Positions 1,500-25,587 of a stretch of 27,336 nucleotides of DNA are shown in pieces. The first letter of the stretch is position 1; each line of letters opens with the position of its first letter. The translations under genes were made by a program, and so were the position numbers. The notes under the pieces are model-generated. The model had not been told where the DNA came from, searched no databases, and was given only the letters and a program-made list of their open reading frames with translations. Where the stretch lies: IMG/VR virus record IMGVR_UViG_3300042479_000825, positions 1 to 27,336 of that record. One strand, 5' to 3'. The stretch is from a virus.

Positions 1500-1690
1500 A
1501 CACTATACAACTAGAATTTGTACACATTAGTGATGGAACTATTGCTTACATGCGTAGTCCTTATGTGCCAAACAGAAAAGATTTAATTGACTACAATGAT
1601 AAGAAGTATGTAGTTCTGGATATTATATGGAAGTTTCCTATAACGGCTACAACAAGTATTCAACTAATAATTGATGAAGTATGTTCTTAA
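1496..1690 (+). CDS. small hypothetical protein, 64 aa
   Basis: A 64-aa protein whose alternating hydrophobic pattern suggests a small beta-barrel (strands around IQLEFVHI, GTIAYMRS, KKYVVLDIIWKF, SIQLIIDEV). It overlaps the preceding gene by ATGA and the terminase start by 10 nt, so its translation is probably coupled to both. No known motif; function unknown. The dense overlap is the main evidence that it is real. Confidence 0.6.
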   Translation: MNTIQLEFVHISDGTIAYMRSPYVPNRKDLIDYNDKKYVVLDIIWKFPITATTSIQLIIDEVCS

Positions 1691-3891
1691 CAATCCCAAC
1701 ATATGATCATAACTTAGGTGCGTGGTCTACAACAGAATTTGAAACAAGAGAAGAGTACGTGGCTTTCTTATGGTCCTGTTTTAAAGAACCAGGAGAGTAT
1801 GAATTTGACGACTGTTCTTTGATGTTCAATGAGCAATCAAAGTTGTTTACAAAGAACAAAGTGTATTGTGTAGCACCATTTAGATCTAAAGATTATATCA
1901 AGTATTGGGATGATCAAAAGGAAAAATGCACCAAAGGTGCCATCTTTAAATACAATGGTAAGACGTGGTTTTTGACACGGTATTACTACATGTGGTTAAA
2001 TTTCTTACCAATCTATAACAAAGAGATAAGCAAATTTGGCTTTGTAGATATCCGTGATGCTCAATATCATATGTCTTTATATGAGGAACTTGCAAAGTAT
2101 AGTTTTAAACATGCTGCAATATTAAAGAAAAGACAGATTGCTTCGTCATACTTTCATGGAGCTATCCTCATAGGAAACTACTGGTTTGATGAAGGATCCG
2201 TTAATAAGATAGCAGGTTCTTTAAAGGATTACATAGGCGAAAAAGGAACCTGGCGGTTCCTTGAGGAGTATCGTAACTTCCTCAATGTTAACACTGCTTG
2301 GTATAGACCATCTAATCCTGATAAAGTTTTAAACTGGGAACAAAAGATTGAAGTAAATGAAGGAGGTAGAAAACGTGATAAAGGTTTAAAGTCTACCATC
2401 ATGGGTCTTGTATTAGAAAAAGATCCAACGAATGGTGTAGGGGGTCCATGTACATTCTTCTTTCATGAGGAAGCAGGGATTGCTCCAAAGATGAATGAAA
2501 CAGTAGAGTACTTATTACCTGCTATGAAATCAGGTATGATTTATACAGGTATGTTTGTTGTTGCTGGATCAGTGGGTAACTTAGAACAATGTGATCCATT
2601 AAAGAAAATGGTTCTTAATCCTGACAGTAAAGATGTGTTGGCTGTGCCAACAAAGTTGCTAAATGCTGAAGGAGAACATGCTGAGTGTGGTTTATTTATT
2701 CCAGAACAATGGTCAATGCAACCTTGCATAGATGATTTTGGAAATTCATTAGTAGAAGAAGCTTTAAAGATGATCTTTGAAGAAAGAGAACTTTGGAAAA
2801 AATCTCTTGACCCAGAGGATTATCAACTACGTATTTCACAAAAGCCAACTAACATAGAAGAAGCATTTGCTTCAAGAAAAGATTCTAAGTTTCCAGCATA
2901 TCTTGTCACACAACAGATACGAAGAATTGAAGATAAAGAATACTTTAGAGAGTTTGTTGAACTAGAAAGAAATGCTGAAGGTAAAATTGAGTTTAAACCT
3001 TCATCAAGAATTCCTATATCTGAATTTCCAATATCCCCTAAGACGAAGGAAAAAGAAGGAGTGGTAGTAATTTATGAAAGACCACATGCAAATCCAACAC
3101 ACGGCATGTATTACGCCTCTATTGACCCTGTAGCAGAAGGAAAAACAACAACATCAGATTCTTTGTGTAGTATATTTGTGTATAAGACTTCTCAAGAGGT
3201 AACAAGACATAAAGAAGATGGTTCAATTGAACAACATATTGAACGCGATGGTTTAGTTGCAGCATGGTGTGGTAGGTTTGACGATTTAACAAAAACGCAT
3301 GAGCGTTTGGAAATGATCATTGAAGCATACAACGCTTGGACTATTGTTGAGAACAACGTTAGTTTGTTTATCCAACACATGATTCAAAGAAGAAAGCAAA
3401 AGTACCTTGTACCTAAAACGCAAATTCTGTTCTTAAAAGAACTACAAAGTAACGCAAATGTTTTTCAAGAATATGGTTGGAAGAATACAGGAACATTGTT
3501 TAAGGGAAACTTAATATCATATGGTGTACAGTTTATTGTAGAAGAGATTGATACTGAGAGTACTCCAGATGGAACTATTACAAAAGTAAGACACGGTGTT
3601 GAGAGAATACCTGATATAATGTTACTAAAAGAAATGCTTGCCTACAGAGATGGACTTAACGTGGATAGACTTGTAGCATTTTGTTCTTTGGTTGCCTTTG
3701 CAAAGGTTCAAGAATCAAACAGAGGATATACTAAACGTGTTGAACGAGAAGAAAGTATTAACTTGCAAAAACCAAATAAAAATGGTAACTTATTCATGAA
3801 TCCATTTCGTCATATTGGAACCACTAATAGTAACTCAAAGTTAGGCAGTGGGCAACAAAGAAACAGAAGTGCATTTAAAAACATGAGATAA
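1681..3891 (+). CDS. terL: terminase large subunit (packaging ATPase and nuclease)
   Basis: A 736-aa protein with the two-domain TerL layout. ATPase half: a P-loop-like element KKRQIASSYFHG (about 149-160), a hydrophobic strand ending in acidic residues TFFFHEEAG (258-266, Walker B with catalytic Glu), and a coupling-type segment VVAGSVGN (293-300). Nuclease half (RNase H-like): YYASIDPVAEGK with first Asp D482, TIVENN with E557, and IPDIMLLKEMLAY...NVDRLVAF with D645 and D662 as later acidic ligands. It translocates DNA into the prohead through the portal and cuts the concatemer. The portal gene follows after 11 nt. The P-loop is degenerate (no GK[ST]), as in some large-phage terminases. The last 60 residues are polar and probably flexible. 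The start at 1681 overlaps the upstream ORF. Confidence 0.93.
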   Translation: MFLTIPTYDHNLGAWSTTEFETREEYVAFLWSCFKEPGEYEFDDCSLMFNEQSKLFTKNKVYCVAPFRSKDYIKYWDDQKEKCTKGAIFKYNGKTWFLTRYYYMWLNFLPIYNKEISKFGFVDIRDAQYHMSLYEELAKYSFKHAAILKKRQIASSYFHGAILIGNYWFDEGSVNKIAGSLKDYIGEKGTWRFLEEYRNFLNVNTAWYRPSNPDKVLNWEQKIEVNEGGRKRDKGLKSTIMGLVLEKDPTNGVGGPCTFFFHEEAGIAPKMNETVEYLLPAMKSGMIYTGMFVVAGSVGNLEQCDPLKKMVLNPDSKDVLAVPTKLLNAEGEHAECGLFIPEQWSMQPCIDDFGNSLVEEALKMIFEERELWKKSLDPEDYQLRISQKPTNIEEAFASRKDSKFPAYLVTQQIRRIEDKEYFREFVELERNAEGKIEFKPSSRIPISEFPISPKTKEKEGVVVIYERPHANPTHGMYYASIDPVAEGKTTTSDSLCSIFVYKTSQEVTRHKEDGSIEQHIERDGLVAAWCGRFDDLTKTHERLEMIIEAYNAWTIVENNVSLFIQHMIQRRKQKYLVPKTQILFLKELQSNANVFQEYGWKNTGTLFKGNLISYGVQFIVEEIDTESTPDGTITKVRHGVERIPDIMLLKEMLAYRDGLNVDRLVAFCSLVAFAKVQESNRGYTKRVEREESINLQKPNKNGNLFMNPFRHIGTTNSNSKLGSGQQRNRSAFKNMR

Positions 3892-3902
3892 AAAAGAAAC
3901 AT

Positions 3903-6638
3903 ATGAAAGTATATAATGCAATGCAGTTAAAGAATGGGGCAAAGTCTGAGTACCATAGAATGGGTACATTGACACAACCTATTCAGTTTTTACCTAAGGT
4001 AGAAAAAGATGAACTCTGGGCAGCTTGGAATATTGATTGGTTTGAAATGCAAGGTCTTAAACAATTAAGACGCAATGCAAGACGTTTGTTAAAAAATTAC
4101 AAACTTGCAAATGGTATTATTGATAAGACAGACTACATTGTTGAAGAAGATAATGAGGTTGCAGACATGATTGATATATTGACACAAGAAGATGAATCAG
4201 CATTTGATTTAAAATTCTTTCCAATTATACCAAATGTAATCAACGTGTTATGTGGTGAGTTTGCCAAAAGAAATGACAAGATTACATACAGAGCAGTTGA
4301 TGATCTTTCTTACAATGAAATGATTGATGAGAAAAGAAAGATGATTGAACAAAATCTTGTTGCAAGAGGAGAACAGCTCATGCAAAAAAAGATTGAAGAA
4401 ATGGGTATTGATACTGAATCTGAAGAAGGTGCTCAACAAGCACAACAAATGATGTCTCCAGAGAGTATTAAAACTTTACCAGAGATTGAACAATTCTTTA
4501 AAAAAGATTATAGATCAATGGTTGAACAATGGGCTTCTCATCAACATGAAGTAGATGTTGAGAAGTTTCAAATGAAAGAAATGGAAAACATGGCATTCAG
4601 AGATATGCTTATCACTGATAGAGAGTTTTGGCATTTTAAAATGAATGAAACAGACTATGAAATTGAATTATGGAATCCTTTGTTAACATTCTATCACAAA
4701 TCTCCTGATGCACGTTATGTATCACAATCAAACTATGCTGGTAAGATTGATATGATGACGTTAGCTGACGTTGTAGATAAATATGGATGGATGATGGATG
4801 ATGATCAGTTAAGGTCTTTAGAAGCAATCTATCCTGTAAAATCTGCAGGTTATATTTTACCTGGTTTACAAAATGATGGTTCTTTTTATGATGCAACCAA
4901 ATCACATGAGTGGAATACACAAGGACCATCTCTAGGAATGAGACAAATGTTATCTTTCAATGATACATTTGGTTTGGGAATGGGTGGTACTAGTCATGAT
5001 GTTATTGCAGAAATACTACATGAATCTGAAGATATGCAAGAGTTTGGTGATACAACTTTATTGCGTGTCTCAACTGTTTATTGGAAATCTCAAAAAATGT
5101 TAGGTCACTTAACAAAAATTCTTGAGACTGGTGAAATGATAGATACTATTGTTGATGAATCATACAAGGTTACTGAAAAACCTATTTATGATACGTCTGT
5201 TATAAAAAACAAAACACGTGAAACAGTTGTATTTGGTGAACATATAGATTGGATCTGGATTAATGAAGTTTGGGGTGGTACTAAGATTGGTCCTAATAGA
5301 CCAGCTTTTTATGGTAACGCAGACAACTTTGGTTTGAACCCTATTTATCTAAACGCAAAACCTGTTAAGTTTCAATTTAAAGGAGACTTCACATTATATG
5401 GCTGTAAGTTACCTGTAGAAGGAGCAATCTTTTCTGATCGTAACAGTAAGTCAAGATCAATGGTTGATAGAATGAAACCTTACCAAATTGGTTACAACCT
5501 GGTTAACAACCAGATAGCTGATATTCTTATTGATGAATTAGGTACTGTAATTATGTTAGATCAGAATGCTTTACCAAGACACTCAATGGGAGAAGATTGG
5601 GGACACAACAATTTCCAGAAAGCATACGTTGCAATGAAGGATTTCCAAATGTTACCACTTGATACAACTATCACTAACACAGAAAGTGCAACAAACTTTA
5701 ATCACTATCAAGTATTGAACTTGCAACAAACAGAAAGATTGATGTCACGTATTCAGTTAGCTGGTTACTTTAAACAACAATGTTTTGATTCTATTGGTCT
5801 TACACCTCAACGTATGGGTGCAACAAATGCACAAGAAACCGCAACAGGTGTAGAGCAGGCAATTAACATGAGTTACAGTCAAACAGAAACGTATTTCATA
5901 CAGCATTCTGAATACTTAATGCCAAGAATCCATCAGATGAGAACAGACTTAGCTCAGTTCTATAACTCTACTACCCCTAGTCTAAGATTGCAGTATACTA
6001 CAACGATGGATGAACAGGTAAACTTTGAGATGAATGGCACAGATCTTTTGGCTAGAGATTTAAACATATATATTTCTACCAAAGTAAATCAACGTCAGTT
6101 AATGGATCAGATAAGACAACTTGCTTTATCTAACAACACTGCTGGGGCATCTATCTACGATCTAGGAAACATAATGAAAGCAGATTCATTAGCTGAGATA
6201 ACTCACGTAATGAAATCAATGGAGCAGAAAACTGATGCTATAAGACGTGAACAAACAGATGCTCAATCTGAACAAGTTAAAATGCAACAACAAGCTGAGA
6301 CTGAAAGACAAGATGCTAAACTTAAATTTGAAGCTGAGCAAAATGCAATGAATAGAGATACTGAAGTTCAAGTTGCTGAAATTCGTGCTGCTGTTAACAC
6401 AGGACAAACAGATACAAATGAAAATCAACAATCTGATTATATTGACACTCTTGAATACTTAGATAAAAAGAACGCAACTGATAGAGACCATGCTTTTAAA
6501 AGAGAACAATCTTTAGGACAACAAATCAATACTGAAAAAGATAGAGCGTTAAAAGAAAGAGAACTTCAAACAAGAGAGAGAATTGCTAACAAACAATTGC
6601 AAGTTGCAGCAAGAAATAAGAATAAATATGACAAGTAA
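3903..6638 (+). CDS. portal protein
   Basis: A 911-aa protein directly after the terminase. It has the composition and order of a large Bacteroidota-phage portal: an N-terminal helical region with LKFFPIIPNVINVLCGEFAK (103-122), which matches the stem-entry helix seen in crAss-like portals; a variable, Gln/Glu-rich insertion (about 140-200); and a central wing/stem region with NPLLTFYHKSPDARY (258-272) and a long helix around 520-550. From about 770 to 905 it is a Glu/Gln/Lys/Arg-rich, nearly uninterrupted helix, probably a coiled coil or barrel reaching into the capsid. The role is the dodecameric vertex for DNA entry and exit. Family assignment rests on position, length and these segments rather than on any catalytic motif. 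Confidence 0.88.
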   Translation: MKVYNAMQLKNGAKSEYHRMGTLTQPIQFLPKVEKDELWAAWNIDWFEMQGLKQLRRNARRLLKNYKLANGIIDKTDYIVEEDNEVADMIDILTQEDESAFDLKFFPIIPNVINVLCGEFAKRNDKITYRAVDDLSYNEMIDEKRKMIEQNLVARGEQLMQKKIEEMGIDTESEEGAQQAQQMMSPESIKTLPEIEQFFKKDYRSMVEQWASHQHEVDVEKFQMKEMENMAFRDMLITDREFWHFKMNETDYEIELWNPLLTFYHKSPDARYVSQSNYAGKIDMMTLADVVDKYGWMMDDDQLRSLEAIYPVKSAGYILPGLQNDGSFYDATKSHEWNTQGPSLGMRQMLSFNDTFGLGMGGTSHDVIAEILHESEDMQEFGDTTLLRVSTVYWKSQKMLGHLTKILETGEMIDTIVDESYKVTEKPIYDTSVIKNKTRETVVFGEHIDWIWINEVWGGTKIGPNRPAFYGNADNFGLNPIYLNAKPVKFQFKGDFTLYGCKLPVEGAIFSDRNSKSRSMVDRMKPYQIGYNLVNNQIADILIDELGTVIMLDQNALPRHSMGEDWGHNNFQKAYVAMKDFQMLPLDTTITNTESATNFNHYQVLNLQQTERLMSRIQLAGYFKQQCFDSIGLTPQRMGATNAQETATGVEQAINMSYSQTETYFIQHSEYLMPRIHQMRTDLAQFYNSTTPSLRLQYTTTMDEQVNFEMNGTDLLARDLNIYISTKVNQRQLMDQIRQLALSNNTAGASIYDLGNIMKADSLAEITHVMKSMEQKTDAIRREQTDAQSEQVKMQQQAETERQDAKLKFEAEQNAMNRDTEVQVAEIRAAVNTGQTDTNENQQSDYIDTLEYLDKKNATDRDHAFKREQSLGQQINTEKDRALKERELQTRERIANKQLQVAARNKNKYDK

Positions 6639-6655
6639 ACAACGATAGCGTTATA

Positions 6656-6711
6656 ATGCAGATTCTTTTGTAAAATAGTTTCTGCATTTATAAACCTTTC
6701 AAGTTTATTTT
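6656..6711 (+). terminator. two weak hairpins downstream of the portal gene
   Basis: In the 116-nt gap after the portal gene, ATGCAGA (6656-6662) pairs with TCTGCAT (6681-6687) across an 18-nt loop, and ATAAAC (6690-6695) pairs with GTTTAT (6703-6708) across a 7-nt loop followed by T residues. The stems are AT-rich, so this would be a weak or partial terminator or a processing site between portal and scaffold messages. Confidence 0.3.
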
Positions 6712-6712
6712 G
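6705..6712 (+). promoter_or_regulatory. possible Bacteroidota-type -7 element before the scaffold gene
   Basis: TTATTTTG differs at one base from the TAnnTTTG -7 consensus of Bacteroidota housekeeping promoters and lies 43 nt before the next gene. No TTTG/TTG is seen at the expected -33 distance, so support is weak. Confidence 0.2.
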
Positions 6713-6754
6713 TAGTTTATATATGAAGACAAACACAAACCAACAACAAACAAA

Positions 6755-8002
6755 ATGGAATTAGAAGAAGACAAAAACAAAGCAACTATGGAACTGGATA
6801 ACATTGATGATTTCCTTCCATTACCAGGTGCTGATAGTGTTGTCACATCTGATGAAGAACCAAAACCAAACTTGTTCACTAATAAACAAACAAGTGCAGA
6901 TTTAGCTTTCTTAGATGAAGATGACGATGAACCAGCTCCAGGGAGCAAAGCAGATACTGACAATGTTCTAAATGAACTTGATGAAGAGTTATCTAAAGGT
7001 TCAGATGATGATGATCAAAAAAAGTCAACTGGTCGTAAAAGAACAGATAAAAATGGCTTGGTAGAGTTTTTGAAAAAACGTATTGAGTCAGAAGAAATGT
7101 TTACATTTGATGACTTTGATGACTCAAAAGAAAGTCTTGATGAATACTTAGGCAAATTATCAGACAAAGACATTGATGAACTTTGGAAAGAAAATGTTAA
7201 AGCTTTAAAAGATGATGTAGCTGCAAAGACTCCAAAAGAATTCTTCAACGCTTTACCAGAAGAAATGCAAAAAGCTGCAAAGTATATTGCTGATGGTGGT
7301 AAAGATTTAAAAGGATTGTTTAGAAGTTTAGCTCAAGTACAAGAATACAAAGATTTGAATCCTTCAGATGAAGGAGATCAAGAGTTGATTGTAAGACAAT
7401 ACTTATATGCAACACAATTTGGTGAAGGTGATAGAGAATTGATTGAAGAACAAATACAAGAGTGGTATGAAAATGGCACAATTGCAAAAAGAGCTAATCA
7501 GTTTAAACCTAAACTAGATAACATGCAAGAACAAATTCTTGAACAAAAACTTGCTCAGCAAGAAGACTTCAAGAAACAACAAGCTGCAAAAAAAGATGAG
7601 TATATGGAAAACATATATAACACTTTAAAACCAGCTGAATTAAATGGTATCAAGATAGATGGTAAACGTCAAAAGTTCTTATGGGATGAATTGACAAATG
7701 CTAAATATGAGTCTTTAAAAGGTACTCCTACAAACTTATTAGGAAAACTGTTAGAAGATTATCAATTTGGAAAAGCACCAAGATATGATTTGATATCAGA
7801 AACACTTTGGTTACTTTCTGATCCTGAAGATTACAAGGAACATATTAGAAAGCAAGCAAAAAATGAAGCAGTTCAAGACACTGTTAAAAAACTTAAAACG
7901 GAACAAGCTCATAAGATTTCATCTAACTTTACTGATGATGATGATGAGAAAGCTCCAAAAAGAAAAATAAGTAAGCCTTCTAACATTTTTGCTAGAAGAT
8001 AA
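6755..8002 (+). CDS. acidic helical protein between portal and capsid; scaffold candidate
   Basis: A 415-aa strongly charged, mostly helical protein. The first about 100 residues are rich in Asp and Glu (for example LDEDDDEPAP, SKGSDDDDQKK). The middle is alternating helices with Gln-rich coiled-coil character (about 240-285). The C-terminus turns basic (KAPKRKISKPSNIFARR). Position between portal and major capsid, charge pattern, low aromatic content at the ends and a basic tail that could contact the capsid floor are what is expected of an internal scaffolding protein. No protease is visible in the window, so whether it is cleaved is unknown. A start at 6788 (MELDN) is an alternative. It could also be an internal head protein. 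Confidence 0.65.
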   Translation: MELEEDKNKATMELDNIDDFLPLPGADSVVTSDEEPKPNLFTNKQTSADLAFLDEDDDEPAPGSKADTDNVLNELDEELSKGSDDDDQKKSTGRKRTDKNGLVEFLKKRIESEEMFTFDDFDDSKESLDEYLGKLSDKDIDELWKENVKALKDDVAAKTPKEFFNALPEEMQKAAKYIADGGKDLKGLFRSLAQVQEYKDLNPSDEGDQELIVRQYLYATQFGEGDRELIEEQIQEWYENGTIAKRANQFKPKLDNMQEQILEQKLAQQEDFKKQQAAKKDEYMENIYNTLKPAELNGIKIDGKRQKFLWDELTNAKYESLKGTPTNLLGKLLEDYQFGKAPRYDLISETLWLLSDPEDYKEHIRKQAKNEAVQDTVKKLKTEQAHKISSNFTDDDDEKAPKRKISKPSNIFARR

Positions 8003-8048
8003 CATAGTACACAAAAACAAATATAATAATAACTCTTAAATTTTAAAC

Positions 8049-9695
8049 ATGAGTACACCTGTAATGAACAATGGATTGTTCTTGAGAGACACGAACTATA
8101 AAGTTAGCTCTCACTTGGATTCTTACCACTTGGTGAACATGCTAAAATCTGCTGAACCTATGGATTTAGGACCAGTTGATTTGTGGGCAATGACACAAAA
8201 AGTAGAAATGCCTTTATACCAAATGGCTTCTTTTGGTGGTAAAAACACAATTATGGTAGACACTCCTCGTGGAGAGTACAAATGGCAAACACCAATTGTA
8301 CAAGATTTACCTTACATCACTGAAAACGTTGAACCTGCTAACGCTAAGTTAGGACAAGATGGTACAACTTTCAAAATCAAAGTTAACAAACGTGCGTTTG
8401 GACATGGTGACATCGTTACTTATGACAAATACAAAGGTTTGGAGATGTACGTTACTGCTGATGACATTCTTCCTTCTGGAGATGGTTACATCTATACAGT
8501 ACAGTTAGTGAACAACAACAACACTGCTTATTTAGATGCAGTTAAGTATTTGAAACCAGGGACTAAGTTCTTCAGAAAAGGTTCTGCCCGTGGTGAATAT
8601 GGAGAGAAATTCTCTGACATCGGTGAATTAACAAATGGCTTTAGAGAGTACTACAACTTTGTTGGTGGTGCTGAAGCTCACGTTCACTATTCAGTTTCTT
8701 CTCGTGCTGAGTTAATGTTGAAAGGTGGTATTAACCAAGATGGTACAGTTCCTGTAACTGAGATCTGGAGATCATTTGATAAAAACATTGACCCTTCTTT
8801 GACAAACATCGATGCTATGGTGAAAACTATGGGTAAAGATTACATCAAAAAAGCATATGACAATGGTAACTTAACTCGTTCTTTCTTAACTAAGTTAGAG
8901 TCTGCTCACTTATCAAAAATTGCAAATGACATTGAGACTTACTTAATGTGGGGTCAAGGTGGTAGAATCAAACAAGATGGTCCAGATGATATGAGATTAT
9001 CTGTAGGTTTATGGGGTCAATTAGATAACTCTTTCAAACGTATCTACAACAAATCTTCTTTCTCTTTGGAGTTATTCCGTTCTGAGATTTTCAACTTCTA
9101 CAATGGTAAAGTTGAGTTTAAAGGTCCAGATCCATCTCGTCAAATCATTGTTCAAACTGGTATGGCTGGTATGAAAATGATCAATGAGGCTATCAAAAAA
9201 GAAGCATTTAACACTGCAGGTTCTGGAACACAGTTATACGCAAGTATGGACAAATCTGGTATGAATGCTATCTCTGGTAACAACGCAATGGATTTGAACT
9301 TTGGATTTGCATTTACTTCTTACACAATTCCTTTCTTAGCGAATGTGAAATTTGTGTTGAACTCTGCATTTGACAACGTACATACAAATGACATTGAAAA
9401 CCCAATCATAGATGGTTTCCCATTGTCTTCTTACAACTTCATCGTTTTTGATATCACTGATAACACTAATGACAACATTTACTTGTTGAAATTAAAATGG
9501 GACAATGAATTGAAATGGTTCTACCAAAATGGAACAATGGATTACATGGGTCGCTCTCAAGGTTTTGCATCATCTGGTAACTTCAATGGATACCGTGTAA
9601 TGATGTCTCAAACTATGCCAGCTATCTGGGTTAAAGATCCAACTAAGGTTCTTAAAATTGTTATGAGAAACCCTATCACTGGTGGTTCTTTCTAA
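8049..9695 (+). CDS. major capsid protein (HK97-fold, by context)
   Basis: A 548-aa protein after the scaffold candidate. Its composition suits an HK97-type shell protein: an N-terminal arm (1-60), a mixed alpha/beta body with many Gly/aromatic turns, a long central helix region around 245-300 (KDYIKKAYDNGNLTRSFLTK, then HLSKIANDIETYLMWG), and a C-terminal part ending in a beta-rich segment (VMRNPITGG). The gene uses more C-ending Asn, Lys-neutral and Phe codons (AAC, TTC) than its neighbours, as expected of a highly expressed gene, and it has its own strong terminator just after the stop. These two facts and its place after portal and scaffold are the main evidence; I did not identify a diagnostic short motif. 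The start follows an A/T-only leader. Confidence 0.8.
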   Translation: MSTPVMNNGLFLRDTNYKVSSHLDSYHLVNMLKSAEPMDLGPVDLWAMTQKVEMPLYQMASFGGKNTIMVDTPRGEYKWQTPIVQDLPYITENVEPANAKLGQDGTTFKIKVNKRAFGHGDIVTYDKYKGLEMYVTADDILPSGDGYIYTVQLVNNNNTAYLDAVKYLKPGTKFFRKGSARGEYGEKFSDIGELTNGFREYYNFVGGAEAHVHYSVSSRAELMLKGGINQDGTVPVTEIWRSFDKNIDPSLTNIDAMVKTMGKDYIKKAYDNGNLTRSFLTKLESAHLSKIANDIETYLMWGQGGRIKQDGPDDMRLSVGLWGQLDNSFKRIYNKSSFSLELFRSEIFNFYNGKVEFKGPDPSRQIIVQTGMAGMKMINEAIKKEAFNTAGSGTQLYASMDKSGMNAISGNNAMDLNFGFAFTSYTIPFLANVKFVLNSAFDNVHTNDIENPIIDGFPLSSYNFIVFDITDNTNDNIYLLKLKWDNELKWFYQNGTMDYMGRSQGFASSGNFNGYRVMMSQTMPAIWVKDPTKVLKIVMRNPITGGSF

Positions 9696-16475: not shown

Positions 16476-18467
16476 ATGTATCCAAATTTTGATTGTAGAT
16501 CTTGTGCTGATTGTACACCAACTCAAACAGTTGTTACACCAGTAAATTGTGCTGGTGGCACACCTTGTTTAGATTTTGTAGGCACAACTTGTGTTGCATA
16601 TCAAGGTCCAACTTTTGCATGTGGTGCAATAACAATTGCAACAGGTGAAATACTTACAAGTGTTTTAACAAAAGTATTAAGTGCTTTATGTGCTGGTGGT
16701 TTTACAGGAGCTACTGGTCCTACTGGTCCTACGGGTCCTCCTGGACCAAGTATAACAGGTCCTACTGGACCTTCTGGTACAAATGGTGTAACACCAAGTA
16801 TAACAATTGCTAATACAATTAATGGTGCTCCTGGTTCAAATGCCTTAGTAGCTCTTGCTTTTGGTAGTACATTGACAAATGTTCTTTTAGATGTAACAAT
16901 ACCTAGAGGTAATCCTGGTACAAATGGTACAAATGGTGTTGGTATAGGAAGTGTAGTTGTCAATGGTTCAGGAGAATTAGTTATAACTAAGACAGATGGA
17001 ACAACTATAAATGCTGGAAGTGTACTTGGTCCTCAAGGAACACCAGGTACTAATGGTACAGACGGAATAGATGGAAGAGCTGGTGCAAATAGTTTATATT
17101 ATGTAAATGGTATTTTGACATCTGGTATTTTAGGAAGAGGTAGACTTGAAATAAATTCTCAAACACTTTCTGCAGTAACGCAAATAAAAATTAGTGACAC
17201 CTCAATGCAACAAGGTTCACCAACGTTAAATCCTCTTGGTCAAGCTTTATCATGGGTAAGTGTACCTGGTATAAATGATTATTTACAAATATATGATACA
17301 ACAGATCCAAGTATCTTTGGAATTTATAAAATTACTGCAAAATTAGCAGAACCTGTTAATCATGGCATAAAGTTTACAGTTATACCAATAACAACAAATG
17401 GTACCTCTGCCATCAGTTATGAGTTTGCTACTTCGTTTCTTTTAATGGGTAAAGATGGATTAGCTGGTACTCCTGGTGTAAATGGTTCATATGTATCTGG
17501 TACTGTCATAAATAATGCTGGTGATTTAATTGTAACACTTTCTGATTCAACAGTTTATAATGCAGGAAGTGTGTTATTTGACTTTGGTTCAGGAACTTTA
17601 AACACTGTTGCAAAATGGACACCAGATGGTTTTCATTTAGGTGATAGTTTAACAAGAGATGATGGTACTGCCATTGCAGCAGGTATTGCAGTTTTATCAG
17701 CATTCAATTTTTACAAAGTAGAGACTGATGATCATATTGGAGCAGGATGGTTTAGAACAAGTGCTATAGATTCTACACCAGGAAGATCTAGTGTAGGTTT
17801 AAAAGGAATAGCATATGGTCCTGGTACAGTAAATGCAAATATTGGAATAACTGGTTATGCGTCAAATAATACACTTTTAAATATTGGTGCTCAAGGTATT
17901 GTCGATTTTGTATCAACAACATCAACAAATATTGGTGCTGAGTTTCAAGCACTTAATGGTTTAAACAATTATCCTTTAAGACTTGTAGCACCATCAAATG
18001 ATGCTGAAACAAAATTCTTTGTTTCTAAAACGGCTGATGGAAGTGGTGATTGGGGAACAATTAATGAATATTCAGAAACAACACTAGATAAAGATAATGA
18101 TTATTTAATGTTTTATGATGCCTCAACAACATTACATGCAAAAGTGTTAGTAAATAGTTTAATTACGTTAGCTAATGAAAACTTACAAAAGGTGATAACT
18201 ACTGATTATACATTAACTGACCTTGATAATAATTACACAATTTTTGTTAATAATGCTTCAACAGCTGTAACAATAACTATAGGAGCAGTAACTTTAACAG
18301 GTTTTAGTGTAGGTTTTATACAAGAAGGTACAGCAGATGTAACTTTTTCAGGTTCTGGTTTAATAAATCCAGTTGGTCTTAAACTTAAAGGATATGGTTA
18401 TCAATCATTTATTGAAAGAAAACTTGCTACTTCTACATACTATTTACTAGGTAATACAAAAGTATAA
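16476..18467 (+). CDS. collagen-like tail fibre, 663 aa
   Basis: Order: an N-terminal Cys knuckle (CRSCADC, 7-13); the anchor module (31-72: VGTTCVAYQGP...CAGGF); Gly-X-Y collagen-like triplets (74-100: TGATGPTGPTGPPGP) and again 146-156 and 185-201; an IPRG-type beta unit (GAPGSNALV...DVTIPRG); a unit of the form VNGSGELVITKTDGTTINAG; a ~120-aa beta domain (204-325) also found twice in the 880-aa protein; a second GKDGLAGTPG collagen stretch; a segment LNTVAKWTPDGFHLGDSLT (376-394) typical of phage fibres; and a C-terminal beta domain from about 575 (TDYTLTDLDNNYTIFVNN) ending in YYLLGNTKV. It is almost certainly a trimeric host-contact fibre. It starts 11 nt after the previous gene. Confidence 0.85.
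   Translation: MYPNFDCRSCADCTPTQTVVTPVNCAGGTPCLDFVGTTCVAYQGPTFACGAITIATGEILTSVLTKVLSALCAGGFTGATGPTGPTGPPGPSITGPTGPSGTNGVTPSITIANTINGAPGSNALVALAFGSTLTNVLLDVTIPRGNPGTNGTNGVGIGSVVVNGSGELVITKTDGTTINAGSVLGPQGTPGTNGTDGIDGRAGANSLYYVNGILTSGILGRGRLEINSQTLSAVTQIKISDTSMQQGSPTLNPLGQALSWVSVPGINDYLQIYDTTDPSIFGIYKITAKLAEPVNHGIKFTVIPITTNGTSAISYEFATSFLLMGKDGLAGTPGVNGSYVSGTVINNAGDLIVTLSDSTVYNAGSVLFDFGSGTLNTVAKWTPDGFHLGDSLTRDDGTAIAAGIAVLSAFNFYKVETDDHIGAGWFRTSAIDSTPGRSSVGLKGIAYGPGTVNANIGITGYASNNTLLNIGAQGIVDFVSTTSTNIGAEFQALNGLNNYPLRLVAPSNDAETKFFVSKTADGSGDWGTINEYSETTLDKDNDYLMFYDASTTLHAKVLVNSLITLANENLQKVITTDYTLTDLDNNYTIFVNNASTAVTITIGAVTLTGFSVGFIQEGTADVTFSGSGLINPVGLKLKGYGYQSFIERKLATSTYYLLGNTKV
16566..16691 (+). repeat. 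anchor module copy 2 (protein-level repeat)
   Basis: Residues 31-72 of the 663-aa fibre: CLDFVGTTCVAYQGP, then C49, then a helix ending LCAGGF. Closest to copy 3 in the 880-aa protein, which also ends CAGGF directly before the collagen triplets. Confidence 0.7.
17085..17450 (+). repeat. fibre beta-domain copy 1
   Basis: Residues 204-325 of the 663-aa fibre. The pattern NSLYY, then KISDTSM, then W, then DYLQIYDTTDPSIFGIYKI, then a strand pair is shared with 22280-22630 and 22691-23035. Each copy is flanked by collagen-like GxxG triplets. Confidence 0.6.
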
Positions 18468-18472
18468 GTTAT

Positions 18473-21400
18473 ATGAAAAATTTTAAAAAAGATATATTTC
18501 GTACAGCATCTGATTTTTGTGAAGAATGTACAGACGGCATTGTGCAAATTGGAACACAATGGTGGTCAAAATGTAACTTAAAAGTTACAACATATAAAAA
18601 TGGAGATGTGATTCCTGAAGTATCAGATCAATCTACATGGGCAACACTTACTACAGGAGCATGGTGTCATTATAATAATAATCCATTGTATGATGCCATT
18701 TATGGCAAACTATATAATTGGCATGCTGTCAATGACCCACGAGGTTTAGCCCCAAATGGTTATCATATTCCATCAGATGCTGAATGGACTATATTAACAG
18801 ACTATTTAGGAGGATTATCTATAGCAGGAGGAAAGTTAAAAGAACCAGGCTTTTGTCATTGGAATGCACCTAATAATGATGCCACAAATAGTTCATTATT
18901 TACAGCTCTCCCAGGTGGATATCGAACCAACTCTGGAAGTTCTATCCTCATTGGTAATATTGGTAACTGGTGGAGTTCTACGGAGAGTGCTGCAACTACT
19001 GCTTGGTACCGCAACCTAAACACTAATTATGGGTATGCAAATAGAGCTACTACTAATAAGTTACTTGGAATATCTGTTAGAGTTGTAAAAGATGAGTGTT
19101 TAGATTGTACACCACATAATGTAACAATTGGTACTCAAGTATGGACAGGTTGTAATGCTAATATAGCAGTTTATAGAGACAATACAGTAATTCCTTATGT
19201 TGATGATGCAACACAATGGTCAAATTTGACTACAGGAGCATGGTGTCATTATGATAATGATCCAGCAAATGAACCAATTTATGGTAAATTATACAATTGG
19301 TATGCTATTGCGGGAGTCCATGACACAGCTTCACTTACTGATCCTTTATTAAGAAAACAATTTGCACCTGCTGGATGGCATATACCAACTAAAGATGAGT
19401 TTACTACTTTAACAAATTTTGTAGGAGGGTTGAGTGTAACAGGAACCAAGTTAAAAGAAATAGGTGATTGTCATTGGTTAGGAGGAAGCGGTGCAACTGA
19501 CGACTATGGTTTTACGGCATTACCAGCAGGATGGAGATTAAGTTATGGACCTTTTAATCTCATAACTACTCATTGTAATTGGTGGAGTTCTACTGAATTT
19601 AATGGAACCTTTACTTGGGGTCTTAACTTAAGCAATGGTAGTACCTATGGTAGTATTGCATACATGCCTAAAAAAAGTGGGTTATCGGTTAGATTTGTAG
19701 AAGATGCATGTTTTGATTGTATTGCACATGATGTTAATATTGGTACTCAAACTTGGACAGGTTGTAATGCTAATACTAAATTTTATAACAATGGTGATCC
19801 CATACCTTATGTTGATAATAATACTACTTGGGTTTCACTAACAACAGGAGCATGGTGTTATTATAACAATGATCCAGCAAGTGAAGCAACGTATGGTTTA
19901 CTATACAATTGGTTTGCAGCAAACGATGTAAGAGGAATAGCACCAACAGGATGGCATTTACCCTCAGATGCTGAGTGGACTATTTTAACTGACTTTTTAG
20001 GAGGTGAAAGTATAGCAGGTGGTAAAATGAAGGAAGTGGGATTGTGTCATTGGAATACCCCAAATACAGATGCAACAAATACATCTTTATTTACTGGTGT
20101 TCCTGGTGGATTCCGCAATGACAGTGGGTATTACTACACTATTGGTAGCAGTGCTAACTGGTGGAGTTCTACAGTGCTCAGTACAAATACAGACTTTGCT
20201 CAGTACCGTTACTTAACCAATAATAATGGTGCTGCGTACAGAAACGTCAACAATAAAAAAATTGGTTTGTCTCTTAGATTTGTAAAAGATGTATGTTTAG
20301 ATTGTACAGCAGGTGATGTTGTTATTGATACTCAAACTTGGAGTCGTTGTAACTTAAATGTTTCATCTTATAGAAATGGTGATCTAATTCCTGAGGTAAC
20401 AGATCCAACTGCATGGGCATCCCTTACAACTGGTGCATGGTGTTGGTATGCAAATGATTCAAACAATGGTATTACGTATGGTAAGTTATATAACTGGCAT
20501 GCTGTAAATGATGCAAGAGGTTTAGCTCCATTTGGATATCATATTCCTTCAAAAACTGAATGGGATACATTGTCTATTTTTTTAGGTGGAAGTGGTGTTG
20601 CTGGTGGTAAAATAAAAGAAACAGGATTTTGTCATTGGATATCACCAAATACAAATGCTGTAAATACTAGTAACTTTCAAGCTTATGGTGCTGGATTGCG
20701 TAATAAATTTGGAACTTTTGCTAATTTAAAAGTTACTGGAACATTTTGGAGTACAACATTGCAAAGTGGTTTTAGTGATGCTGCTTGGTTTCAAGAAGTA
20801 TATAAATTAGATGGTAATTTATATGGAAACTATTATGATAACGTAAGTGGTTTATCTGTTAGAGTAATAAAAGATGCACCAGTTGCACCAGCATGTCCAG
20901 ATTGTGTAGCTGCTGATATAAACATTGATGGTGTAGTTTGGAATCTTTGCAATACAAATATTACAAAATATAGAGATAACACAGATATACCACAAATAAC
21001 AAACAATACTGATTGGTATAATGCAACAACTGGAGCATGGTGTTGGTACAATAATGATCCTGCAAATGAAAGTACATATGGTAAACTATATAATTTTTAT
21101 GCTATCCAAGGAATACATGACGCAGCGTCACTTACGGATCCATCATTGAGAAAACAATTTGCTCCAAGTGGATATCATGTACCAACTGAAGCTGAATTTT
21201 TTGCATTAAATACGTATTTAGGAGGTGATGTTGTTTCTGGTGGTGCAATCAAAGAAGTTGGAACATGTCATTGGCAGTACAATAATGGTGCAACAAATAG
21301 TAGTCTTTTCACAGCATTACCTGGTGGTGCAAGAGTATATAATGGTGCATTTGACATGTTTAAAACTTCAGGTTACTGGTGGACTTCTTCTGAAAACCCT

Positions 21401-21520
21401 GTAACTTCAAATCCTAATATGATTGCTTTTACTTTTCAAGTATCAGCAAGTCAACCAGAAATGTATTACTCATATAAACGAAAATCAATTGGTGCTTCAG
21501 TTAGATTTATAAAAGATTAA
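18473..21520 (+). CDS. penta-FISUMP adhesin (five Fib_succ_major domains), 1015 aa
   Basis: The whole protein is five tandem FISUMP (Fib_succ_major, C-type-lectin-like fold) domains: residues 16-207, 209-411, 413-606, 608-801 and 808-1015. Each starts with a C-x-x-C linker (CEEC, CLDC, CFDC, CLDC, CPDC) and shows W-x-x-CN, an x-N-G/N-D-x-IP strand, TTGAWC, YGKLYNW-type, GW/YHIP, K-E-x-G-x-CHW and NWWSSTE-type blocks, ending in SVR(V/F)VKD. Domains 2 and 5 share an extra HD-ASLTDP-LRKQFAP insert. FISUMP domains are usual in Bacteroidota and Fibrobacteres surface proteins and occur as variable proteins of diversity-generating retroelements. Here the array probably displays five binding faces on the virion. 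There is no signal peptide. It lies 5 nt after the 663-aa fibre. Confidence 0.88.
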   Translation: MKNFKKDIFRTASDFCEECTDGIVQIGTQWWSKCNLKVTTYKNGDVIPEVSDQSTWATLTTGAWCHYNNNPLYDAIYGKLYNWHAVNDPRGLAPNGYHIPSDAEWTILTDYLGGLSIAGGKLKEPGFCHWNAPNNDATNSSLFTALPGGYRTNSGSSILIGNIGNWWSSTESAATTAWYRNLNTNYGYANRATTNKLLGISVRVVKDECLDCTPHNVTIGTQVWTGCNANIAVYRDNTVIPYVDDATQWSNLTTGAWCHYDNDPANEPIYGKLYNWYAIAGVHDTASLTDPLLRKQFAPAGWHIPTKDEFTTLTNFVGGLSVTGTKLKEIGDCHWLGGSGATDDYGFTALPAGWRLSYGPFNLITTHCNWWSSTEFNGTFTWGLNLSNGSTYGSIAYMPKKSGLSVRFVEDACFDCIAHDVNIGTQTWTGCNANTKFYNNGDPIPYVDNNTTWVSLTTGAWCYYNNDPASEATYGLLYNWFAANDVRGIAPTGWHLPSDAEWTILTDFLGGESIAGGKMKEVGLCHWNTPNTDATNTSLFTGVPGGFRNDSGYYYTIGSSANWWSSTVLSTNTDFAQYRYLTNNNGAAYRNVNNKKIGLSLRFVKDVCLDCTAGDVVIDTQTWSRCNLNVSSYRNGDLIPEVTDPTAWASLTTGAWCWYANDSNNGITYGKLYNWHAVNDARGLAPFGYHIPSKTEWDTLSIFLGGSGVAGGKIKETGFCHWISPNTNAVNTSNFQAYGAGLRNKFGTFANLKVTGTFWSTTLQSGFSDAAWFQEVYKLDGNLYGNYYDNVSGLSVRVIKDAPVAPACPDCVAADINIDGVVWNLCNTNITKYRDNTDIPQITNNTDWYNATTGAWCWYNNDPANESTYGKLYNFYAIQGIHDAASLTDPSLRKQFAPSGYHVPTEAEFFALNTYLGGDVVSGGAIKEVGTCHWQYNNGATNSSLFTALPGGARVYNGAFDMFKTSGYWWTSSENPVTSNPNMIAFTFQVSASQPEMYYSYKRKSIGASVRFIKD
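18518..19093 (+). repeat. FISUMP domain 1
   Basis: Residues 16-207. Belongs to the short subtype with domains 3 and 4 (NDPRGLAPNGYHIP). The segment 18914-19066 resembles a retroelement variable region. Confidence 0.8.
19097..19705 (+). repeat. FISUMP domain 2
   Basis: Residues 209-411. Long subtype, with the insert GVHDTASLTDPLLRKQFAPA that it shares with domain 5. Confidence 0.8.
19709..20290 (+). repeat. FISUMP domain 3
   Basis: Residues 413-606. Short subtype. Its linker and first strand (NIGTQTWTGCNANT) are almost identical to those of domain 2, pointing to local duplication. The segment 20105-20266 resembles a retroelement variable region. Confidence 0.8.
20294..20875 (+). repeat. FISUMP domain 4
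   Basis: Residues 608-801. Short subtype with NDARGLAPFGYHIP; its terminal part lacks NWWSSTE and reads GTFWSTTLQS instead. Codons are mostly A/T-ending, unlike the variable parts of domains 1 and 3. Confidence 0.8.
20894..21517 (+). repeat. FISUMP domain 5
   Basis: Residues 808-1015. Long subtype with GIHDAASLTDPSLRKQFAPS. It is preceded by a short APVAPA linker that is absent from the other junctions. Confidence 0.8.
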
Positions 21521-21541: not shown

Positions 21542-24184
21542 ATGGCTCAAGAAAATCAAGCAAGTTCAAACTTTGTAATTGCAGGAACAGGAACAGGTTG
21601 TGGAGAATGCAATGGATTATCCCAGTGTGCATCTTGTAATCCTTCAGAATTACCACCATTGGAATCATGCAGTACAGGAACTAAATGTTTAGAAACTGTT
21701 TATACAAATTGTGTTGTTTATGATGGACCTACTATTACATGTAGTGGGGCAACAGTCGTTACAACAGGTACTGGATTAACACCTTTGATACAAGATTTGT
21801 ATGCACGAATGTGTGCAGGTGGGTTTATAGCTCCAACAGGACCAATAGGACCTCCAGGTCCAGCACCAACAATTACTGTAACACCAGCAGTTCTACTTTC
21901 AACACCAGCATTGCCACCTATTGTTACAAGTACACAAACTGGTCCAGGAGCATATAACTTTGAATTTAGATTACCTGCTGGACAAAATGGTGTATCACCT
22001 AATGTTGTACCTTATAATGTAACAACAGGAGCACCAGGAACATCTGCGTTAGTTACTTTAGATTCATCAAGTACACCAGGTCTAAAACGTTTCAACTTTA
22101 CAATTCCAAGAGGTGCTGATGGTGTGCAAGGAGATGAGGGTGTTGGTATTGTATCTGGTATTGTAAATGATTCTGGTCACTTAATTGTAACTAAATCTGA
22201 CGGTACAGTATTTGATGCTGGTTATGTTGTTGGACCAGCTGGTAATGCAGGTGCTGATGGTGATCAAGGTTCTCCTGGATCTAACTCAATCATTTATAAA
22301 ATGGGTGTAGATGCACCAGGTAATGTTGCTGTTGATGCTTTACAAGCTACATCTGTAACTAAAATAACTGCAAGTAATACATCTAGAGTTGGTTACAATG
22401 GTGTTGTGAACCCTACTCTAAGTAACGCAAATGCATGGTTAGAATCTGTAGTTGTTGGTGATAGAATACAATTGTACAATTCTTTAGATAGTACAATTTT
22501 TGGCATTTATGATGTTTGGAGAATTTATAACAACTCAACAAATACATCCCATATTTTTGAAGTAAATTTGGTAGGAGGTTCAGGAACATTCACAATGACA
22601 AGTGATATATCAGTTTCTTTTAATATAAAAGGTGATAGAGGTTCTGCTGGTAGTAATGGTATTGATGGTGAAAAAGGAGCTGTTGGTCCAAATACTTTAG
22701 TATATGAATGTAATTCTAGTACAGTAACAGCACCAGGTAAAGCCGTTTTAAACAATGGGAATTTTGCTCTTGTAAACACATTGATCTTAAATGAAACATC
22801 AATGTTAGGATATACAGGAGCTGTTGCAAGTATTGGTAATGCAATTGTATGGTTAAATGCTATTGAAACAAATGCAAGAATACAAATTACAGATGTAAAT
22901 AATTCTGATGTGTTTGCAATTTTTAGAGTTATTAGTAGTACTCATGTTGCTGATTATCATACGTTTAATGTTGCTGTAATTGCTGCAAGTAATACACTTT
23001 CTATTACTGATCAAAACTTTGCAATAAACTATGTTAATCCAGGTTTAAATGGAAACTATATTGTAACAAATTATATAGCACCTGGTTCAGATCCAACTTG
23101 TCCTTATGGTGGCGTTCTTATTGAAACACGTTCTGGTGTTGATGATACATTAGTTGATCCACCAGTAAAGATATGTAATCCAAAGAATGGTGATTATGTA
23201 AGAGTAACACCTGCACCTACGGGTGATGGTGCACCATGTGTTTATGGTGGTGTATTAATTAAAACATATGATGGAGGAAATGACGCACTTCTTTCTTCTA
23301 ATGTTGTATGTAATGGACCTGGTGATATTGATGTAACAAGCAATTGTGAATTTATTATTGAAAAAACAAATACAGTTTCTGGTGTAACTTTTGATATATC
23401 AAATAATGATTCAGGTTGGTATGATTTATTAGGTTTTGCACATCAGTCAATAGATGCAAATAGACCACAAGTAAGAAGAATTGGTAAAGAATTATATTTT
23501 AGAGGTAACATTACTGTTCCACTTGCAAATCCTACTAATGGTGGTACAACTGCAATACATTTTGGAACAGGTGTATATGCTGGATATAGTCCTGCAGATG
23601 TTGCTCTTGTAACACCTTATACTGGTACTGGTGGAGTAACTTTAAACCCAAATGGTGGTATATACTTTAATAAAAATAATTCATGCATACCTGCTGCTGT
23701 ATACTGTGATGGAATTATACCAACATTTTCAAGAGTTGTATTTGGTGGTTCTCCAATCATGCAAAGACCTTTGCTTACAGATGGTGGTGGTGTTACAATA
23801 AATGCTACAACAAAAATTATTTCAGGAAATACAGATTATGGTTCTTCCTTAAGTACAGTATGTCAATTGTTTATCATGACTAATAATGTTTTTTATTTAG
23901 CAACTGCACAAGATATTGAACAACCTATTAGAGGGGGTGTTGTAAATGATGGTGGTGGAACTCACAGACCTATTATATGTAATGTTAGAGCAGGTGATTA
24001 TTGTGCTAACTGGAATTCACCTAGTGTATCATTTCACGGAGCAGGTACCTCAACAATAAATAGTCCATTAGATGTTGATATGTCAGGTTTAGGAAAATGG
24101 ATAGTTACTTGTGATGGTGGTAATTATAATCATCTTGGTGGATTTTCTGTTACCATTGATCATATGAGACTATTATTAGATTAA
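21542..24184 (+). CDS. collagen-like tail fibre with probable receptor-binding head, 880 aa
   Basis: Order: Cys knuckles (CGEC, CASC; 20-32); the anchor module (49-91: CLETVYTNCVVYDGP ... CAGGF); short collagen triplets (99-107); an FEFRLPAG/NFTIPRG beta unit (140-192); a GIVNDSGHLIVTKSDGT unit (206-222); GxxG triplets; beta domain copy (247-363); KGDRGSAGSNGIDG; a second copy (384-498); two tandem YGGVLI-x-T repeats with Cys (518-546, 565-593); then a C-terminal domain from about 602 (ISNNDSGWYDLLGF ... RRIGKELYFRGNITVP ... TIDHMRLLLD) that looks like a receptor-binding beta-sandwich. The N-terminal half mirrors the 663-aa fibre, so the two are paralogues. The role is host recognition. A terminator follows. 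Confidence 0.85.
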   Translation: MAQENQASSNFVIAGTGTGCGECNGLSQCASCNPSELPPLESCSTGTKCLETVYTNCVVYDGPTITCSGATVVTTGTGLTPLIQDLYARMCAGGFIAPTGPIGPPGPAPTITVTPAVLLSTPALPPIVTSTQTGPGAYNFEFRLPAGQNGVSPNVVPYNVTTGAPGTSALVTLDSSSTPGLKRFNFTIPRGADGVQGDEGVGIVSGIVNDSGHLIVTKSDGTVFDAGYVVGPAGNAGADGDQGSPGSNSIIYKMGVDAPGNVAVDALQATSVTKITASNTSRVGYNGVVNPTLSNANAWLESVVVGDRIQLYNSLDSTIFGIYDVWRIYNNSTNTSHIFEVNLVGGSGTFTMTSDISVSFNIKGDRGSAGSNGIDGEKGAVGPNTLVYECNSSTVTAPGKAVLNNGNFALVNTLILNETSMLGYTGAVASIGNAIVWLNAIETNARIQITDVNNSDVFAIFRVISSTHVADYHTFNVAVIAASNTLSITDQNFAINYVNPGLNGNYIVTNYIAPGSDPTCPYGGVLIETRSGVDDTLVDPPVKICNPKNGDYVRVTPAPTGDGAPCVYGGVLIKTYDGGNDALLSSNVVCNGPGDIDVTSNCEFIIEKTNTVSGVTFDISNNDSGWYDLLGFAHQSIDANRPQVRRIGKELYFRGNITVPLANPTNGGTTAIHFGTGVYAGYSPADVALVTPYTGTGGVTLNPNGGIYFNKNNSCIPAAVYCDGIIPTFSRVVFGGSPIMQRPLLTDGGGVTINATTKIISGNTDYGSSLSTVCQLFIMTNNVFYLATAQDIEQPIRGGVVNDGGGTHRPIICNVRAGDYCANWNSPSVSFHGAGTSTINSPLDVDMSGLGKWIVTCDGGNYNHLGGFSVTIDHMRLLLD
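21686..21814 (+). repeat. anchor module copy 3 (protein-level repeat)
   Basis: Residues 49-91 of the 880-aa fibre: CLETVYTNCVVYDGP, then C67, then a helix ending CAGGF. Confidence 0.7.
22280..22630 (+). repeat. fibre beta-domain copy 2
   Basis: Residues 247-363 of the 880-aa fibre, with DRIQLYNSLDSTIFGIYDV matching the same block of copy 1. Followed by KGDRGSAGSNG triplets. Confidence 0.6.
22691..23035 (+). repeat. fibre beta-domain copy 3
   Basis: Residues 384-498 of the 880-aa fibre, with ARIQITDVNNSDVFAIFRV in place of the FGIY block. More diverged than copies 1 and 2. Confidence 0.55.
23093..23320 (+). repeat. tandem C-x-YGGVLI repeat inside the 880-aa fibre
   Basis: Residues 518-546 and 565-593 both read C-x-YGGVLI-x-T, then a G/D-rich turn, then L, then a V-C-N type end. 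They lie between the collagen-like stalk and the C-terminal head. Confidence 0.55.
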
Positions 24185-24212
24185 TAAGGTTTGTTGGTTT
24201 ACCTTTGAACTT

Positions 24213-24246
24213 ACCCCTTTGGTATAATGCTAAAGGGGTTTGTTTT
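24213..24246 (+). terminator. intrinsic terminator after the fibre operon
   Basis: ACCCCTTT (24213-24220) pairs with AAAGGGGT (24232-24239) across an 11-nt loop and is followed by a T-rich tract. It ends the transcript carrying the adhesin genes. Confidence 0.85.
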
Positions 24247-24267
24247 ATAAAAAAATTCTTATCTTTA
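24239..24267 (+). promoter_or_regulatory. possible Bacteroidota-type promoter before the metallophosphoesterase gene
   Basis: TTTG at 24239-24242 and TATCTTTA at 24260-24267, followed by CA, are separated by 17 nt. The second box differs from TAnnTTTG only in its last base. The site lies right after a terminator and 21 nt before the ATG. Confidence 0.4.
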
Positions 24268-24288
24268 CAAACATTTAAAAACAATTTT

Positions 24289-25587
24289 ATGAACAATATT
24301 GCAGAAGTGTATCAGAGTCTTCAAAGAAAAAAATCTATTGAAGCAGAAGCTGAAAGATTAGGCATCACAGTTGATGATTATGTTGCAGCCAAGGATCAAA
24401 TAAGTGAAATTCTTAGAGAGAGAAGAGAAGATATTGCAGATTACATTTCAGATTTAGCAACAGGTTCTGATAAGACTAAGTCAAACATAGACAAGTCTTG
24501 TCCAACTAAAGAGTTATTACTATCTAGTAAAGTAATTGAAGTTCATGAAAACGTTGAAGAAGGTACAAGTAAAATTACTGCGTTGTCTTCAACAGAACCA
24601 AAATCAGCTGAGGAAATCATCAGTATTCTAAAACTGGACACTACCAAGTGGAAACTTAGTCAATACTGGAATAAAGAAAAACATGATAAATGGTTAGTGT
24701 CAGCATTAGTAACAAGAGTAAAAGAAGAGGAAAGAGCAATAGTTGATTTATATCAAATTTTAAGTGACAGAGGTTTACCTGAATTTGAAGCAGTTAAACC
24801 AGAAGACTTACAACTTAATAGAGATGCAGATGAACGCGTTTGTGGAGTAATGTCTTTTCAAGATTTACATTTTGGAAAACTAGATAATGATGACATTGCT
24901 GAACAAGTATTCAATGCTGCAAAATACCTTATTTCTAAAGCGTATTTGAACTATCATTTAGAAAAAATCATTTTTGTTATTGGAGGAGACATTTTAAACA
25001 TGGATACTTTTCACGGTACAACTACCAAAGGTACCGTTGTAGAAAATGGTATGACTGCACCTGATGCTTACATTTTAGCATTTGATACAGTTTGTAGAAT
25101 AGTTAATCTGTTTAAACAATACACAGAAGATTTAGAGATAGTATTTATTCCTGGAAACCATGATAGATTATCATCTTTTCATTTATTACATGCTGTGTCT
25201 CAAGCTTTTTATAAAGAAAGATCTATTACATTTAATACTAAGTATGAAGAAAGAAAAGTTCTTCAGTTTGGAGTTAACATGTTTGCCGTTGAACATGGAG
25301 ATGTAACTGCTAAAAACAATCCACTTGTATATGCTACAGAATTTCCTGAAATATGGGGGCAAACTTTGTATAGAACATTGTATACAGGACACTATCATTA
25401 TGGTAAAACTAAAGAGTATATTACAGAAAATGGAGAGAATGGTTTTGTAACTAAAATCATACCTGCATTGACTGCTGGTGATTATTATCATCATCATAAT
25501 AAGTATACAGGATCAAGACGTTCAGCACTTATACACTTACATGATGCAAACAAAGGATTAGTTTCTGAGTTTACATATAGCATTTAA
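24289..25587 (+). CDS. calcineurin-like metallophosphoesterase
   Basis: The frame is open upstream to a TTG at 24205, but that start lies before the terminator hairpin; the ATG at 24289 gives 432 aa. Residues 1-160 form a helical N-terminal region with a segment ISILKLDTTKWKLSQYWNKE (110-129), like the DNA- or protein-binding front domain of related phage enzymes. The catalytic part has all metallophosphoesterase blocks in order: DLH (D192, H194), GGD (232-234), GNHD (289-292), EHGD (335-338) and GHYH (367-370). Such enzymes hydrolyse phosphodiester or phosphomonoester bonds with two metal ions. The substrate is unknown: nucleic acid end processing or nucleotide cleavage are both possible. 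It differs from SbcD/gp47 by lacking a long C-terminal capping domain. Confidence 0.85.
   Translation: MNNIAEVYQSLQRKKSIEAEAERLGITVDDYVAAKDQISEILRERREDIADYISDLATGSDKTKSNIDKSCPTKELLLSSKVIEVHENVEEGTSKITALSSTEPKSAEEIISILKLDTTKWKLSQYWNKEKHDKWLVSALVTRVKEEERAIVDLYQILSDRGLPEFEAVKPEDLQLNRDADERVCGVMSFQDLHFGKLDNDDIAEQVFNAAKYLISKAYLNYHLEKIIFVIGGDILNMDTFHGTTTKGTVVENGMTAPDAYILAFDTVCRIVNLFKQYTEDLEIVFIPGNHDRLSSFHLLHAVSQAFYKERSITFNTKYEERKVLQFGVNMFAVEHGDVTAKNNPLVYATEFPEIWGQTLYRTLYTGHYHYGKTKEYITENGENGFVTKIIPALTAGDYYHHHNKYTGSRRSALIHLHDANKGLVSEFTYSI

Follow-up and report, generated by a model that had tools for sequence, protein, structure and literature searches.

The window, by which we mean the whole 27,336-bp stretch of DNA analysed here, is a virus record and represents part, not the whole, of the genome of a crAss-like (Crassvirales-type) phage. 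This assignment is given by the head genes located at 1681-9695 on the plus strand, where terminase (1681-3891), portal (3903-6638) and capsid (8049-9695) were recognised by PHROG matches, and by a crAss ring protein 2 gene detected by Pfam (PF25702; 26209-26880, plus strand). Between the capsid and the ring genes lies a gene (18473-21520, plus strand) whose 1015-aa product carries five FISUMP (PF09603) domains, matched by Pfam in five stretches (E=4e-170; 562 bits for a curated cut-off of 33.9). The same location relative to the capsid and ring genes was found in L004, and many other relatives also have a ring gene close to their FISUMP gene. This array forms a surface adhesin of the crAss-like phage and would serve to bind variants of a host surface ligand. 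Collagen-like Gly-X-Y genes with PHROG tail fibre matches are found on both sides of it (16476-18467 and 21542-24184), followed by an ORF (24205-25587) with GGDILNMD and FIPGNHDR motifs, which looks metallophosphoesterase-like to the eye and has no Pfam match at E<=0.001.

Two nearest relatives were identified. One, L080, is a 99.9% identical fragment that stops short of the adhesin; the other, G002 (L004/L081), is 93% identical across 16.6 kb. In G002 the adhesin has two domains (L004:10013-11218) versus five in the window, with ca. 70% identity in the gene versus 93% elsewhere.

The five domains, all on the plus strand, occur at 18527-19093 (D1), 19097-19705 (D2), 19709-20290 (D3), 20294-20875 (D4) and 20894-21517 (D5). 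Fib_succ_major is a listed target domain of diversity-generating retroelements (DGR) [PMC4159848], and an earlier note on this DNA had pointed to segments resembling DGR variable repeats (VR) in the first and third domains. Both the five domains and the two VR-like tails were recovered in frame where it had placed them, at 18914-19081 in D1 and 20105-20278 in D3 (plus strand). The tails stand at the end of their FISUMP domain; a DGR VR is expected at the end of a C-type-lectin-like domain. Those of D2, D4 and D5 are not VR-like, with mismatches to template at 42-43%, 47% and 49-55%, respectively, of the sites that are not adenine in the template (non-A sites). D3 was also modelled with AlphaFold2 (mean pLDDT of 95.6); when the model was compared to the PDB, C-type lectins ranked top among matches that were all below significance.

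The excess of C-ending codons that the same note had reported for both tails is clear in D3, where C occurs in 16 of 42 C/T-ending codons versus 55 of 492 elsewhere in the gene (Fisher p=2e-5) and where the densest 30-codon C-ending run of the whole gene falls (shuffle P=0.007), whereas it is weaker in D1 (9/38, p=0.029). As the note had stated for D4, neither D4 nor D5 displays such a signal (C3 of 0.03-0.07); D2 is marginal (0.11).

Templates (TR) of DGRs were found in Bacteroidota MAGs by using a TR-enriched sequence pattern. Two Bacteroidota loci carry the complete set, with a reverse transcriptase (RT), an Avd-like gene, a TR and a FISUMP target together in L189 and the same set in L224. 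In both, the differences between TR and VR are nearly all at adenines and the homology spans from CTTCC to GGGAT. The L189 target also consists of collagen-like repeats joined to a FISUMP domain. One bacterial family has a good share of such templates, matched at E<=1e-10 in 18 of the 240 genomes searched; phylum-wide, with the threshold relaxed to E<=1e-3, 27 of 395 genomes gave a match, often a weak one. Two more AAC-rich, template-like FISUMP sequences, ca. 70% identical to the L189 template, occur in a single bacterial genome, G214 (L195:1501-1657 and L222:1501-1650).

Comparison of the L189 TR with the FISUMP genes of five diverged phage relatives revealed tails with mismatches at 5-10% of the non-A sites and at 34-49% of the adenines, hereafter fresh VRs. 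For adenines and non-A sites, respectively, the mismatches amount to 29/71 and 5/97 in L012, 34/71 and 9/97 in L008, 35/71 and 10/97 in L002, 24/71 and 7/97 in L004, and 27/71 and 8/97 in L001. Other TRs fit the five VRs worse, with 11-17% of non-A sites mismatched for L188 and 21-26% for L224 and L300, while each of the five departs at only 2-6 of 97 sites from a shared template inferred by leaving it out. The template-like tract covers the whole VR from its first codon in all five, which were compared in detail, and extends in the phages from just after CTTCC to GTTAG(A/G). The homologous FISUMP gene of G002, the nearest relative that includes the adhesin, contains a fresh VR. In several related phage FISUMP genes, 40-49% of codons are C-ending in the VR stretch versus about 5-15% outside that stretch.

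Between the five phages, 89-95% of the non-A sites of the VR are identical, third positions included (84-92%), whereas third codon positions of the adjoining upstream domain bodies are only 46-64% identical. Conservation of the VR beside bodies with saturated synonymous divergence indicates that the VR only, and not the domain, has been rewritten or replaced from one template. Likewise, codon identity with bacterial FISUMP genes at codons for the same amino acid is 0.65-0.77 for the fresh VRs versus 0.47-0.53 for the bodies; a transfer of the whole domain from bacteria is ruled out by this codon divergence of the domain body. Two further observations were made on FISUMP genes. In L184 (1-164, minus strand), a shortened FISUMP body runs directly into a fresh VR (EFELLDLSTDLPGGFR), as if joined by deletion. 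In L008 (14372-14461) and L012 (10748-10837), the non-coding stretch 3' of the FISUMP genes is nearly identical and the VRs upstream agree at only 44% of the template-adenine sites.

Against the same L189 TR, the window D1 tail has mismatches at 21 of 97 non-A sites and 28 of 71 adenines, and that of D3 at 24 of 97 and 25 of 71. At non-A sites this corresponds to 22-25% in D1 and D3 versus about 41-53% in D2, D4 and D5 (p=5e-8 for the first two against the other three). D3 further keeps a third-position C at 14 of the 20 AAC/TAC codons of the TR. When only codon positions 1 and 2 are considered, D1 has a single non-A mismatch (1/46) for 28/66 at adenines, D3 is intermediate (6/46 and 23/66) and the non-A mismatches of D2, D4 and D5 are 11-15/46. 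Some contrast between adenines and other sites is seen at these positions in D2, D4 and D5 as well, because conserved residues constrain the non-A sites, so that the case for D1 rests on its 1/46 versus 11-15/46 in these controls. Where D1 departs from the inferred phage template at non-A sites, 22 of the 23 differences are in third position and 15 are C to T. Read from these patterns, the D1 and D3 tails are ameliorated VRs, and not fresh ones, the synonymous sites of which have ceased to agree with the template, mostly through changes from C to T; the constrained non-A sites still agree with it, D1 more than D3. The earlier note had considered that the two segments do not clearly share a template; both in fact belong to the L189 TR family and are eroded rather than unrelated. 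Fresh, fossil and unrelated tails, i.e. the same age classes, are also found in one phage, L001. Such tails may thus be rewritten while active and then drift towards AT once inactive.

No RT or TR was found in the 27,336-bp window, in agreement with the earlier note; this covers only part of the phage genome. Records of related phages were searched for RTs by Pfam, by tblastn with a bacterial DGR RT and with an HMM built on six DGR RTs, crAss-like ones among them, the controls of which score 1e-130 or better; none was found. A single HMM match in G027 (8 bits, E=0.008) was weak and was put aside as chance. No TR was found in the records of G021, G027, G025, G020 and G002, or in the loci of relatives searched. 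The window, G002, G025, G020 and G027 are fragments, for which these results apply to the sequenced part. G021, however, is circular, as shown by an exact end repeat of 127 bp, and its 121 kb contain two fresh VRs but yielded no RT and no TR; G022 looks complete too (297-bp end overlap), but its VR-type tail is not fresh. Among viral contigs, the seven matches to the VR/TR pattern are all VRs, and an earlier TR-like pattern and peptides of the bacterial RT both gave zero matches. Deposited phages gave no match with the TR as query, while the bacterial RT as query retrieved 115 distant RTs, all with less than 60% identity, including those of crAss-like phages, which served as a sensitivity check. 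Finally, no VR-like FISUMP tail was found in the stretches that follow the portal gene in relatives more distant by portal.

The earlier note had proposed that the segments were diversified by a DGR, "here or in a donor". That D1 and D3 derive from VRs is borne out, and relatives do have adenine-specific fresh VRs, but those of the window are ameliorated. As for its location, the DGR was found in Bacteroidota and not in the phage records of the relatives, the gene itself being that of a crAss-like phage. A lack of RT and template in relatives was part of what the note would have taken to refute the proposal; none was found in the related phages, yet the VR origin still holds, since genomes of Bacteroidota do contain the template.

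These data indicate that the phages appear to borrow the variability of their VRs, probably from their bacterial hosts, and we consider it likely that the source of the template lies outside the phage. The C-terminal third of some FISUMP domains would be a VR written from a template that is absent from the phage. During infection, a host DGR (RT, Avd and TR RNA) would rewrite the phage VR in trans, and the copies in D1 and D3 of the window would have ceased being rewritten. The FISUMP adhesin locus is a hot spot for gain, loss and replacement of domains, and arrays may change through domain duplication and shuffling, which would place tails of all three kinds (fresh, fossil and unrelated) next to each other. 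That the adhesin obtains its VRs from a DGR not encoded by the phage, probably that of the host, and that the window copies have since drifted is a reading we regard as evenly balanced between right and wrong. The fuller statement, of a crAss-like lineage with neither RT nor TR and with adhesin VRs that the DGRs of the infected bacterial hosts rewrite in trans, is put forward tentatively, at somewhat below that level.

Retrohoming in trans by a host DGR is proposed because, in the five phages, the likeness to the template takes in the entire VR and nothing else, which this mechanism explains. What the phage VRs lack, with no common sequence in its place, is the bacterial 3' tail (TGTTTGAGGGAT), and retrohoming might need such an end. 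No stem of at least 6 bp with a 3-6 nt loop and no IMH-type element was recognised at the 3' end of the phage VRs, nor in the bacterial controls, which leaves the hairpin search uninformative. Moreover, 6 non-A sites separate the closest bacterial TR from the inferred phage template, so that the exact host was not found, and the window capsid protein had no match in the 240 genomes of the TR-bearing family, a search run without a positive control. The absence of the 3' tail would be accounted for if the phage VRs had instead been swapped by homologous recombination with bacterial FISUMP VR alleles that were already diversified, with no retrohoming on phage DNA. The tracts would then have the size of the VR, no other part having enough similarity for recombination, and indeed codon identity with bacteria is saturated outside the VR, which would confine recombination to it. 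Recombination should nevertheless often leave partial tracts, whereas the five fresh VRs are template-like throughout, and no phage VR was found to equal a bacterial VR allele, although sampling of these is thin. Such exchange seems rather unlikely, and we lean to retrohoming in trans, for which we hold the scales to be level.

Alternatively, the phages may have, or lately have had, a DGR of their own, either in the unsampled part of the fragments or since lost, as happened in some epsilon crAss-like phages. For the window and the other fragments this is the main rival, and DGRs that are complete, fragmented or deleted have been described in crAss-like phages [PMC11054128]. It is at odds with the circular G021, with the finding that the template pattern matched only VRs among viral contigs, and with an RT search that does detect known crAss-like RTs; we regard it as improbable. 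A further reading concerns the window only, in which the VR likeness of D1 and D3 would reflect chance or amino-acid constraint of the FISUMP fold in a gene with no DGR history. Taken alone, the codon bias of D1 is marginal and the contrast of D3 between adenines and other sites reaches only p=0.05-0.10. Chance or constraint hardly fits, though, with the low non-A mismatch of D1 at codon positions 1 and 2 compared to D2, D4 and D5, with the separation of D1 and D3 from the other domains at non-A sites, or with the fresh VR in the homologous gene of G002, and no control FISUMP tail fitted the template as well as D1. This last reading is therefore very improbable.

DGRs are understood as cassettes acting on genes within the genome of their owner, be it phage or bacterium. 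In the present case, the VR as the written product and its writer, the RT and TR, seem to be split between different organisms. If this is true, the host's own diversifier gives its phage adhesin variation, surveys that demand an RT in the same genome overlook such genes, the template sequence could indicate the hosts of these phages, and fossil VRs such as those of the window would allow past rewriting events to be dated and counted. Candidate target genes on RT-less contigs have been noted for fragmentary metagenomes [PMC4159848]. In the open-access literature, to which the search was essentially confined (most subscription papers lying outside it), no report was found of phage VRs with neither RT nor TR whose template lies in bacteria, and the novelty of such VRs is provisional.

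Three known systems can be compared to the situation described here. In the Bordetella phage BPP-1, homing into a recipient phage takes place from a donor plasmid that provides RT, Avd and an engineered TR [PMC3240598]; its DGR requires an IMH and a downstream hairpin, neither of which was recognised in our phages or bacterial controls, and has in common with them the adenine-specific rewriting of a phage receptor-binding gene. DGRs of crAss-like phages, described for crAssphage LMMB [PMC7290462], the epsilon group [PMC11054128] and the zeta group [PMC12386605], occur in the same phage order and act on a target of receptor-binding type, but have RT and TR in cis, the RT being fragmented or deleted in some [PMC11054128], whereas our relatives carry fresh VRs, RT and TR were looked for in them and not found, and a template was found in bacteria. 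Finally, the chromosomal FISUMP DGRs of Bacteroidota (L189 and L224) gather RT, Avd, TR and target in one genome, unlike the phages, in which only the VR was found, and share with them the frame of the VR, the template family and the target domain.
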